From positions 1 to 62,213 of the forward strand of contig JAITCH010000013.1 in the NCBI GenBank assembly GCA_031283185.1: a stretch of DNA of 62,213 nucleotides, read 5' to 3'. The notes below the pieces were generated by a model. It ran no database searches. It worked only from the letters and a program-made list of their open reading frames with translations, and was not told the DNA's origin. Numbering within the stretch: position 1 is the first letter of the stretch; each line of letters begins with the position of its first letter. Below are positions 10,640 through 40,746 of this stretch, piece by piece. Origin of the DNA: Rickettsiales bacterium. GTDB taxonomy: Bacteria; Pseudomonadota; Alphaproteobacteria; Rs-D84. A program made the translations under genes and the position numbers.

Positions 10640-10708
10640 GGTAATAGCCACAGGTAAAAACTAAAACGACACGAAGTGTCGTCATCCCCGTGCAGTTCGC
10701 ACCAAAGC

Positions 10709-10757
10709 CCCCTTCGCTGGCGAAGGGGTGGCAGCCAAAGGCTGACGGGGTAGTGGT
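10709..10757 (+). repeat. P-element 1 (two-hairpin palindrome), left border of the DUF559 unit
   Basis: A 20-bp hairpin (CCCCTTCGCTGGCGAAGGGG), TGG, a second small hairpin (CAGCC AAA GGCTG) and a GGGGTAGTGGT end. It is 49 bp, the same length as the copy inside hemW at 32056-32104. Its last base is the first base of the DUF559 stop triplet. Confidence 0.9.
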
Positions 10758-11116
10758 CAGACTTTGTTTATCTCTTCCTTAATATAACTCAACACCCCTT
10801 CCAAATTCGTCTTTATATCTAAATCATCAATATGCAAAACCTTAAATCCCAATCCTATCAAATAATCCTGCCTCTCTAAATCGTGTTCGTATTTAACCTC
10901 GTGCGAGCATCCATCAATTTCAATAATCAAATTATGCGCGGCGCAATAAAAGTCAGCGATATAGCGATTATTTATGACTTTCTGCCTGTCAAAGTCCAAG
11001 CCTGCGAGTTGTCTGTTTTTCAGTTGATTCCAAAGCAAGGCTTCGGACAAAGTGCCGTTTTTGCGAAGTTCCCTGGCTCTATTCTTAAAAAGATTATTTG
11101 GTTTTTGTAGTTTCAT
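10757..11116 (-). CDS. DUF559 / Vsr-like endonuclease-fold protein
   Basis: 119 aa. DUF559 proteins have a very-short-patch-repair-like (PD-(D/E)XK superfamily) nuclease fold. Seen here: LWNQLKNRQLAGLDFDRQKVINNRYIADFYCAAHNLIIEIDG with D, E and D at the expected active-site positions, then HEVKYEHDLERQDYLIGLGFKVLHI. P-elements in opposite orientation touch both ends: one meets the stop codon, the other begins 2 bp upstream of the ATG. The whole unit spans 10709-11173. It could be a passenger, or the nuclease that moves or fixes the P-elements; that link is inference. Confidence 0.85.
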   Translation of the reverse strand: MKLQKPNNLFKNRARELRKNGTLSEALLWNQLKNRQLAGLDFDRQKVINNRYIADFYCAAHNLIIEIDGCSHEVKYEHDLERQDYLIGLGFKVLHIDDLDIKTNLEGVLSYIKEEINKV

Positions 11117-11118
11117 TT

Positions 11119-11173
11119 ACCACTACCCCGTCTTGCGGCTTTGCCGCAATCCACCCCTTCGCCAGCGAAGGGG
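11119..11173 (-). repeat. P-element 2 (inverted relative to P1), right border of the DUF559 unit
   Basis: Reverse orientation: ACCACTACCCCG, a TTGCGGCTTTGCCGCAA hairpin, then CCCCTTCGCCAGCGAAGGGG. It mirrors P1 across the DUF559 gene. Confidence 0.9.
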
Positions 11174-11232
11174 ACTTTTGTGCGATGCCCCAACAAAAAG
11201 CAGTTAATACACATTATATATATGAATTAATT

Positions 11233-31690: not shown

Positions 31691-31753
31691 TTTATTCCTA
31701 GGATTAGTTTGACCTTGAACTTTATCACTAAATTTATCATAGTCAACTTAATT

Positions 31754-32866
31754 ATGACGAAATTCCCAAGCCACCATTTATATATTCATACGCCATTTTG
31801 CGCGAAGAAATGCCCTTATTGCGCGTTTTATTCGGTTGCGACCAAGCCAGACTGGGATGAATATGCCGCCGGGATAATCAAAGCGATTGGCGAACAGCCG
31901 AAATGTGCCGTTCCAACCATATTTTTTGGCGGGGGAACGCCAAGTTTAATGCCGCCTATGGTTTTAGAGCGAATTTTAAGCGCAATTCATAAGCATTTCA
32001 ATGTTGACCCGAACGCCGAAATAACCATAGAAATAAATCCCGGCACTCTTAAAGTCCCCTTCGCTGGCGAAGGGGTGGACGGCGTAGCCGGACGGGGTAG
32101 TGGTAAATTGACCGATTACAAGGCACTGGGTATAAACCGGGTTTCAATTGGCGCACAAAGTTTCAACGACCGCGACCTGCAATTTTTGGGGCGAATTCAT
32201 ACAGCCGCCGAAGCCCGCCAAACCATTGAGGCCGCCCAAAACTTGGATTTCAAGGTTTCCGCTGACTTTATATATGCCCTGCCGGGACAGACATTGACCG
32301 ACATTGCCGATTTATGCGCCGAAATCAAAAAAATTGGTCTAAAACACGCATCTTTATACGAATTAACCATTGAACCCGGCACTCCTTTTGCAACTAAATT
32401 CCCCCCCAAGGGTGGGGGGGCGCAGGGGGCGGGGTGGTTCGATCCTGACAACAGAACAGACTTTTTCACCGAAATCGGAAAACACTTGCGCCGATACGAA
32501 GTATCCAACTATGCGGAACCCGGCTTTGAATGCCAACATAACAGCGGAATTTGGGCGGGCGAGCCTTATATTGGCTTGGGAGCATACGCCGCCGGCCGCC
32601 TGTTCGACGGCAATCAATGGTCAGAGCAATTATCAGGTGTTCTAACCCCGCTTTCAACCCGCGCTCGCGCGATTGAAAAGGTCATAACCGGTCTTCGCAC
32701 CATCCGCGGCGTGGAACTGACGAACGATGTCCGCGAAATCCTAAATTTTGATTATATAAATGCCAATCCATCTTACTTTTGCCATATTCCGTCTGCCACC
32801 CTTACCCTTACCCCGCAAGGGCTGATAATCCTTGATTTTCTGCTTCCCTATGTGATAAAATCCTAA
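31754..32866 (+). CDS. hemW: Radical-SAM HemW-like protein carrying two P-element insertions
   Basis: 370 aa. The cluster motif C16-x3-C20-x2-C23 (FCAKKCPYC) marks radical SAM; FGGGTPSL, EINPGT, LGINRVSIGAQSF and CQHNSGIW fit HemW, a heme chaperone related to oxygen-independent coproporphyrinogen oxidase. Two insertions interrupt otherwise conserved sequence: VPFAGEGVDGVAGRGSG after EINPGTLK (DNA 32056-32104) and FPPKGGGAQGAGWFD after PGTPFATK (DNA 32399-32442). Both are P-elements read in frame. The ATG at 31754 gives the usual N-terminus, without a clear Shine-Dalgarno. Confidence 0.88.
   Translation: MTKFPSHHLYIHTPFCAKKCPYCAFYSVATKPDWDEYAAGIIKAIGEQPKCAVPTIFFGGGTPSLMPPMVLERILSAIHKHFNVDPNAEITIEINPGTLKVPFAGEGVDGVAGRGSGKLTDYKALGINRVSIGAQSFNDRDLQFLGRIHTAAEARQTIEAAQNLDFKVSADFIYALPGQTLTDIADLCAEIKKIGLKHASLYELTIEPGTPFATKFPPKGGGAQGAGWFDPDNRTDFFTEIGKHLRRYEVSNYAEPGFECQHNSGIWAGEPYIGLGAYAAGRLFDGNQWSEQLSGVLTPLSTRARAIEKVITGLRTIRGVELTNDVREILNFDYINANPSYFCHIPSATLTLTPQGLIILDFLLPYVIKS
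32056..32104 (+). repeat. P-element 3, in frame inside hemW
   Basis: 49 bp starting CCCCTTCGCTGGCGAAGGGG, then a GGCGTAGCC hairpin and GGGGTAGTGGT. The first hairpin and end are identical to P1 next to the DUF559 gene. Confidence 0.92.
32399..32442 (+). repeat. P-element 4, in frame inside hemW
   Basis: TTCCCCCCCAAGGGTGGGGGGG, a shortened second hairpin, then GGGGTGGTTCGA. It belongs to the TTCCCCGCCA subtype (P5-P7) and uses the same reading frame as the ligA copy. Confidence 0.85.
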
Positions 32867-38235: not shown

Positions 38236-38283
38236 CCCCGCCAAGGGTGGCGGGGTGGCGGCTTTGCCGCCGGGGTGGTTCGA
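38236..38283 (+). repeat. P-element 5, intergenic
   Basis: CCCCGCCAAGGGTGGCGGGG, TG, the hairpin GCGGCTTTGCCGC, then CGGGGTGGTTCGA. The sequence from here to S-element 3 (38284-38402) is AT-rich with no gene seen. Confidence 0.9.
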
Positions 38284-38402
38284 CTTTTACAATTAAGAAT
38301 ACCAGACCCCCACAGAATAAACCTTTTTCTAGCATAATTGCAACTACATTTTTATTCTAGACACCGAGTGTTTTTAGTTTTAGAATCAAAACATAATAAC
38401 GC

Positions 38403-40674: not shown

Positions 40675-40724
40675 CCCCGCCAATGGTGGCGGGGTGTCCG
40701 CCTTTGGCGGACGGGGTGGTTAGA
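40675..40724 (+). repeat. P-element 6, intergenic
   Basis: CCCCGCCAATGGTGGCGGGG, TG, TCCGCCTTTGGCGGA hairpin, CGGGGTGGTTAGA. It lies between lpoB-like and fabI. Confidence 0.9.
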
Positions 40725-40746
40725 ATAAAAACAAAAGGAAAACATT

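Follow-up and report, generated by a model that had tools for sequence, protein, structure and literature searches.

Short palindromic repeats are spread through bacterial genomes by several kinds of systems. In the REP/RAYT systems, many short palindromes, often arranged as inverted pairs (REPINs), accompany a small enzyme gene that lies between cognate repeats and encodes an HUH tyrosine transposase (RAYT or TnpA-REP). One genome may contain several families, and the solo copies are probably non-autonomous. Rickettsia palindromic elements (RPEs) are palindromes of ~100-150 bp that lie in frame within the coding genes of alphaproteobacteria and are read as extra peptide. We know of no enzyme for RPEs. 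The Alphaproteobacteria also have abundant CGTC-tagged REPs; a survey of these repeats concluded that no transposase is dedicated to them (Di Nocera et al. 2013; PMC3733652). Another way for a small gene to persist is to insert into conserved genes, as free-standing homing endonucleases do; those of the EDxHD family are described as acting on targets of nearly 60 bp (PMC3943268).

Here we link palindromic repeats to DUF559, a common family of uncharacterized nucleases. VsrA from Caulobacter (CCNA_02930), which contains DUF559, triggers the SOS response in cells without a cytosine methylase, and this supports a DNA-damaging activity of a DUF559 protein in vivo. The authors proposed that VsrA repairs T:G mismatches, and palindromes are absent from that paper's discussion (PMC12907096). 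In the literature, we found no report that ties DUF559 to palindromes; our coverage of subscription journals was thin, so this absence is no proof.

In the 62,213-nt stretch of DNA that we analyzed (the window), a gene encoding a DUF559 protein of 119 amino acids (10757..11116, minus strand) is the sole open reading frame between two inverted, double-hairpin elements of ~50 nt, whose tails face the gene. P1 (10709..10757, plus strand) is 3' of the gene, with its tail (GACGGGGTAGTGGT) directed inward, and P2 (11119..11173, minus strand) is 5' of the gene. The two elements share hairpin 1 (CCCCTTCGCTGGCGAAGGGG) and the tail; they differ in hairpin 2, which is CAGCC-AAA-GGCTG in P1 and TTGCGGC-AAA-GCCGCAA in P2. 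The core of P1 ends at the last base of the stop codon (the reverse complement of 10757-10759) and the core of P2 begins 2 bp 5' of the ATG (11114-11116). The G-rich tail of P2 (GGGGTAGTGGTAAATG, 11114-11132) sits where the ribosome-binding site is expected, and may supply it. There were no matches to Rfam at this locus.

The arms of P1 and P2 pair with each other in two segments: an outer pair of 35 nt with 94% complementarity (10697-10731 and 11151-11185) and an inner pair of 14 nt with 100% complementarity (10744-10757 and 11119-11132). A preliminary description of this DNA had P1 ending at the stop codon and P2 starting 2 bp from the ATG, in opposite orientations, which both the coordinates and the arm pairs bear out. 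It also proposed a unit of 465 bp (10709-11173). The layout of that unit stands, but the arms run ~12 nt further out. Because many solo copies of P have the outer motif (TCGCACAAAAG) next to them as well, 10697..11185 (~489 bp, unstranded), which adds the outer 12-nt arms (TCGCACnAAAG..), is a better choice and probably the whole unit.

The assignment of this gene to DUF559 is based on Pfam, on conserved columns, and on relatives in the PDB (3hrl and 3r3p). The match to PF04480 is strong (E = 1e-29; 103 bits, compared to a curated cut-off of 20.6), and the invariant residues of the family (E25, D55, E66, D68, H72, and D79) are all kept. A profile search with the alignment of DUF559 found only nuclease relatives at E ≤ 0.01. 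These include the homing endonuclease I-Bth0305I (PDB 3r3p; profile E = 1.9e-4; Foldseek TMt 0.74). Judging from these comparisons, DUF559 has a Vsr-like, EDxHD-type PD-(D/E)XK fold, which is common to Vsr and I-Bth0305I.

With up to 3 mismatches allowed, a 20-nt core of P is present at three places in the window, which makes 6 hits if both strands are counted, versus 0.01 expected. This three-copy pattern is not due to chance. In the genome that the window comes from (G000; 930 kb in 15 contigs), we found no fewer than 45 P-like matches. Neither hairpin 1 (CCCCTTCGCTGGCGAAGGGG) nor the tail (GGGGTAGTGG) varies among 32 copies; the middle, which forms hairpin 2, is hypervariable in sequence yet self-complementary. 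The longest stem in 40 distinct middles averages 4.8 bp, versus 3.04 ± 0.12 bp in shuffled sequences, and single-strand folding of P gives two hairpins and an unpaired tail. It looks as if hairpin 1 and the tail form a recognition module and hairpin 2 is structural and selected for pairing only.

The third place in the window is a solo P within hemW (ORF 31709-32866). This copy (about 32056..32106, plus strand) is in frame and adds ~18 residues (KVPFAGEGVDGVAGRGSG) after the sequence NPGTL in HemW. The insert is absent from two genomes of the same genus (G001 and G003), and in a third (G002) this position is occupied by another P-like insert (L408), without a nuclease. A similar insert without a nuclease lies in a loop of queA in another genome (L119, G010:C80, 820-1010). 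The queA loop and the NPGTL loop of hemW are hit repeatedly, as these sites carry P or P-DUF559-P in other genomes. There is also a degenerate and doubtful P-like hairpin in the same hemW ORF (FPPKGGGAQGAGW; 32401..32437, plus strand). Two other solo elements in the window are of a related type, CCCCGCC..GGCGGGGTGG-hairpin-GGGGTGGT: one is at 38236..38284 (plus strand) and is apparently intergenic, and the other is at 40675..40725 (plus strand). Reading frames also stay open through further solo copies of P in rlu-, rrmJ-, and pth-like genes (these names are our reading of the sequences and not from a family search). Since there are in-frame copies in hemW, tsaB, and other genes, P behaves like the palindromic elements of Rickettsia.

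When copies of P are neighbors in the related genomes (a gap of at most 500 bp), they are always inverted (26/26 pairs, with 0 direct), as REPINs are. One of these pairs, in G017, encloses the DUF559 gene.

The genome of the window encodes two other DUF559 proteins, and all three genes are bracketed by repeats, each from a different palindrome family. The second gene lies within a perfect 28-nt inverted repeat and the third within a perfect 54-nt direct repeat. DUF559 is present in 12 of 40 related genomes. Across the order, ~22 of 25 DUF559 loci have palindromes on both sides, which in most cases are inverted, and the two arms of a locus are often 94-100% identical. Besides P type A, whose tail contains GGGGTAGTGG, other DUF559-linked families have palindromes that end with GGGGTGGT or GGGTGAGGG, and these also have two hairpins. 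Across 20 loci, and considering pairs from different genomes only, the similarity of the palindromes is correlated with the similarity of the proteins (Mantel rank r = 0.365, p = 0.0002). For pairs that share a genome, the similarity is no higher than average (0.225 versus 0.218). Such lineage-specific palindromes are what would be expected of a cognate pair of enzyme and substrate, and not of a general habit of the genome.

Across phyla, we scanned one genome per species and obtained 80 DUF559 loci, of which 75 named loci were scored. According to the titles of the records, these represent about a dozen phyla and include Alpha-, Beta-, and Gammaproteobacteria, Nitrospirota, Binatia, Gastranaerophilales/Melainabacteria, Chloroflexota, Planctomycetota, Elusimicrobia, Desulfobacterota-type bacteria, Dadabacteria, and Spirochaetota. 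We considered a locus to be bracketed if the best direct or inverted repeat between its 300-bp flanks scored at least 36. By this standard, 58 of 75 DUF559 loci (77%; median score 49) are bracketed, as compared to 3 of 274 shifted windows from the same loci (1%; median 21); these are best-scoring loci, many are from metagenome-assembled genomes, and the counts treat each locus as independent. The preliminary description had suggested a survey of the DUF559 genes of related genomes for palindromes, and most of them turn out to have them, both in the order and across phyla. The commonest palindrome reads CCCTCTCCC-loop-GGGAGAGGG and continues into a tail that resembles GGGGTGAGGG. As a control, we used ParE toxins, which are also small accessory genes: in a sample of 58 genomes from the same class, 13 of 17 DUF559 loci are bracketed versus 0 of 29 ParE loci.

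About one quarter of the DUF559 loci fall below the threshold, and no palindrome is visible in L213, L234, L243, L254, L259, or L277. At L003 and several named loci, the repeats are direct instead of inverted. Contigs from viral collections that encode full-length DUF559 are bracketed likewise. The distant relatives of DUF559 in true phage contigs (L145-L163) have no palindromes, so the link to palindromes belongs to the DUF559 clade proper.

Some copies of DUF559 look decayed. There is a stop codon within the one-frame match to DUF559 at L205, L212, L248, L254, L258, L261, and L271, and just fragments of DUF559 are found in G033 and G044. L215 and L249 were also flagged for stop codons, which may be effects of frame or coordinates.

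Next we consider whether P and DUF559 occur in the same genomes. P type A is present in 11 of 40 relatives. DUF559 is found in 9 of these 11 but in only 3 of the 29 relatives that lack P type A (P = 3.7e-5, Fisher's exact test). Similarly, across the class, at least three CCTCTCCC-GGGAGAGG hairpins are present in 9 of 13 genomes with a strong match to DUF559, versus 3 of 45 genomes without (P = 1e-5). There are exceptions in both directions. P-like hairpins are found without an intact DUF559 in G004, G009, G044, G050, and G059; among the relatives, P type A without DUF559 is limited to G004, with 2 copies, and G009, whose genome is 61% complete, with 5 copies. Within the genus, the genome of the window has both DUF559 and P type A, and G001-G003 have neither. 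The gene neighborhood of the window's locus, trmD-rplS-DUF2155 (the last name is our reading of the sequence), is kept in relatives, without DUF559 or P type A there. The closest DUF559 protein (L043, from G007) is encoded on a different contig and not near rplS. According to the preliminary description, DUF559 at this locus without palindromes, or abundant P in genomes without DUF559, would argue against a link. The rplS-DUF2155 intervals of G001, G002, G007, and G009 lack both the gene and the palindromes, and most of the P-positive genomes carry DUF559, with 2 and 5 copies of P in the exceptions.

P-DUF559-P is also found within housekeeping genes. It interrupts tsaB (L035 and L038), recO (L045), and truA (L049), as well as queA at two different positions (L036 and L050), and in each case the reading frame is kept. 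In L055 it is fused to the 5' portion of a porA-like gene, and in L344 to the 3' end of ruvC. According to Pfam, the domains of the host protein and DUF559 are within the same ORFs, and the interrupted proteins contain no splicing domain. In alignments, the TsaB and QueA orthologs from related genomes have no insert, and the same loops hold short P-like inserts in other genomes. In G010, the copies of DUF559 within tsaB and truA look like close paralogs. G005 and G013 each have DUF559 in queA; these two copies are closely related and lie at different positions.

We used AlphaFold2 to model one of the fusion proteins, TsaB-DUF559. Both domains are present in the model, and most of the DUF559 part has a pLDDT of ~83-93. 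The joints that are encoded by P (residues 22-60 and 202-221) are predicted to be disordered, and the overall values are 70 for pLDDT and 0.47 for pTM. Using Foldseek, the model matches structures of TsaB, the DUF559 structure 3hrl, and I-Bth0305I.

Does insertion leave a trace in the target? Of the 89 loci that we searched for target-site duplications, L055 gave the only convincing one: at the start of the porA-like gene of G010 (1300-2100), a 25-bp direct duplication of host sequence (ATAGCCGATGGCGGCTGGGCGGCGG) flanks P-DUF559-P. Other shared words were short and were off the junctions. The preliminary description recommended a comparison of strains with and without the gene: related genomes do differ at the loci, but there was no clean empty site in E. 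coli or in plasmids of Sinorhizobium meliloti and Azospirillum. In E. coli, the DUF559 gene is ycjD, which is present in ~62% of 5426 complete genomes, in the order sapF-ycjD-fabI (L283/L287). ycjD has P-like hairpins downstream only, and each genome contains further copies of that downstream repeat at several positions elsewhere. We tried ycjD as a test for empty sites and rejected it, as the ycjD-less genomes that we inspected carry an efflux cassette after sapF. The box C repeats of E. coli were reportedly first described near envM (fabI), which ycjD adjoins. On S. meliloti, we also noticed that the DUF559 gene of strain Ak57 lies within a near-identical inverted repeat of ~114 bp (L286, 1850-2565), and that parts of this repeat are present in ~150 plasmid records from Sinorhizobium, Rhizobium, and Shinella.

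In summary, DUF559 genes show lineage-specific and mostly inverted bracketing, non-coding derivatives, presence or absence between relatives, and insertion in frame. We think it likely that P1-DUF559-P2 is a minimal, insertion-sequence-like mobile element, with the palindromes as its ends and a nuclease that is specific for its own palindrome family; mobilization itself is something we infer. It would probably represent a type of very small mobile element that has not been described before and through which common palindromic repeats spread. The best reading of the solo P elements and the inverted P-P' pairs is that they are non-autonomous derivatives of P-DUF559-P. The preliminary description had already noted the insertion-sequence-like layout and drawn the analogy to REP and RAYT. 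At the level of genomics, both are strongly supported; that the nuclease itself mobilizes P, and how, is still conjecture. That description did not include the in-frame copies of P and of P-DUF559-P within coding genes, or the distinct palindrome families that go with distinct DUF559 lineages.

We propose that the DUF559 protein recognizes hairpin 1 and the G-rich tail of its own family, and that it may do so when the DNA is extruded or single-stranded, because hairpin 2 varies and yet stays self-complementary. The nuclease would then nick or cut at the P element, at a target, or at both, and repair or replication by the host would insert copies of P or of P-gene-P. The action of TnpA-REP on REPINs would be a comparable case, as would a homing endonuclease that spreads its own gene. 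Elements with an open frame could be tolerated by host proteins as disordered linkers or as an extra domain. Because they are tolerated, in-frame copies would accumulate, and they would be hard to lose from essential genes.

Several observations do not fit easily with a mobile element. There is no consistent target-site duplication, some DUF559 loci lack palindromes, the palindromes of ycjD are one-sided, and P-like hairpins can be found without an intact DUF559. Also, the DUF559 protein of Caulobacter was interpreted as a mismatch-repair enzyme (PMC12907096). The main rival explanation is that another enzyme spreads P, and DUF559, acting as a homing-type nuclease, cuts at and settles between inverted pairs of P, so that the palindromes are its target and not its ends. 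Cognate recognition is predicted either way. Gene-less inverted P-P' pairs are common, the related EDxHD homing endonucleases use long sites (nearly 60 bp; PMC3943268), and the direct repeats at L003 and several named loci also point in this direction. Nevertheless, we consider it unlikely: the DUF559 genes of one genome each lie between a different palindrome family, which matches the lineage of the protein; P type A hardly occurs in genomes that lack DUF559; P-DUF559-P interrupts genes that have no P at that site in relatives; and we saw no other candidate mobilizer adjoining P.

Alternatively, DUF559 could be a Vsr-type nuclease for very-short-patch repair or for defense, and the palindromes could be ordinary intergenic terminators or REPs, with both gathering in variable regions of the genome. 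The SOS response that Caulobacter VsrA causes upon loss of cytosine methylation (PMC12907096) is consistent with this idea, and many copies of P are intergenic. Against it are the low rates in the controls (0/29 for the accessory ParE genes and 3/274 for shifted windows) and the cognate type of palindrome, which follows the lineage of the nuclease. Complete units also lie in frame within essential genes, which is unrelated to terminators. We find this explanation improbable. It seems even harder to believe that P-DUF559-P is a relic, once mobile and now spread vertically, with recombination between dispersed copies of P moving the enclosed gene. A relic might account for the lack of a general target duplication and for the seven copies with stop codons and the fragments in G033 and G044. 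However, the arms of single loci are often 94-100% identical, the active-site residues are conserved, and the variation within the genus, with DUF559 and P type A in G000 and neither in G001-G003, points to recent activity.

We had also considered standalone GIY-YIG genes as a negative control, but we dropped them in favor of ParE, as 12 of 26 loci in the class sample (L293-L318) are bracketed by their own, different palindromes (compared to 0/29 for ParE). These palindromes are either of the CGTC-REP type (GTCATyCCCGCG..CGCGGGrATCC) or are CTTCGACAAGCTCAG-type repeats. In the genome of the window, 3 of 4 standalone GIY-YIG genes are bracketed: L429 (C4:7095), L431 (C4:139501), and L432 (C15:66284). 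The CGTC-REP motif is present on both flanks of 4 of 24 GIY-YIG loci and on either flank of 6 of 24. This suggests that GIY-YIG is a possible dedicated enzyme for the CGTC REPs, and a second pairing of a nuclease with a palindrome.

A broader proposal, which we hold with slightly less than even confidence, is that many families of short bacterial palindromes owe their spread to small, dedicated homing-type nucleases rather than to RAYTs alone. DUF559 would spread a superfamily of double hairpins with C/G blocks, and GIY-YIG would spread the CGTC-type repeats, including dRS3 and some RPEs. Together they would form a new, pan-bacterial class of mobile elements that insert in frame in essential genes. 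If P-DUF559-P is a mobile element as we think, DUF559 would have a function, a very common class of intergenic palindromes would have a source, and REP-like spread would have evolved with enzymes that are unrelated to HUH transposases. These results also bear on how palindromic elements such as RPEs enter genes in frame and on what mobilizes the CGTC repeats. The candidate pairs in Caulobacter (DUF559/VsrA) and in E. coli K-12 (ycjD) make a direct test possible.

How does P-DUF559-P compare with known systems? It shares terminal inverted repeats around one ORF, as well as short non-coding derivatives, with insertion sequences and their MITEs. Unlike them, it has no DDE, HUH, or serine transposase, its ends are themselves palindromic, it has no general target-site duplication, and it is under 500 bp. 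With I-Bth0305I (3r3p) and other free-standing homing endonucleases, it shares the nuclease fold, the type of active site, and persistence by insertion into conserved genes. But Pfam gives no splicing domain for the interrupted proteins, the gene is bracketed by palindromes, and it occupies many dispersed sites instead of one allelic site. Caulobacter VsrA has the DUF559 domain and in vivo evidence of DNA damage in common with it, and differs in being read as an enzyme of T:G mismatch repair.

Among the palindromic repeats, P resembles the RPEs in behavior; it is shorter, at ~45-60 bp, and comes with a candidate enzyme. P does not have the CGTC-AT-stem-AT-CCA layout of the CGTC-tagged REPs, and CGTC with an AT-ended stem and CCA was found on both flanks of 0 of 114 DUF559 loci and on either flank of 1 of 114. 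With REP and RAYT, P-DUF559-P shares a high copy number of the palindromes, the frequent inverted pairs, a small enzyme gene between cognate repeats, and several families in one genome. There, the enzyme is an HUH tyrosine transposase and GTAG lies at the foot of one stem; here, the enzyme is a Vsr-like PD-(D/E)XK nuclease, and P has two hairpins and a G-rich tail. The one-stem layout with GTAG at the foot is not seen here: the type A tail contains GGGGTAGTGG, and the other families end otherwise, with two hairpins. P-DUF559-P also differs from REP/RAYT by inserting in frame in genes. With no HUH transposase and no consistent GTAG tag, P-DUF559-P is not a member of the REP/RAYT systems, but it works like them.
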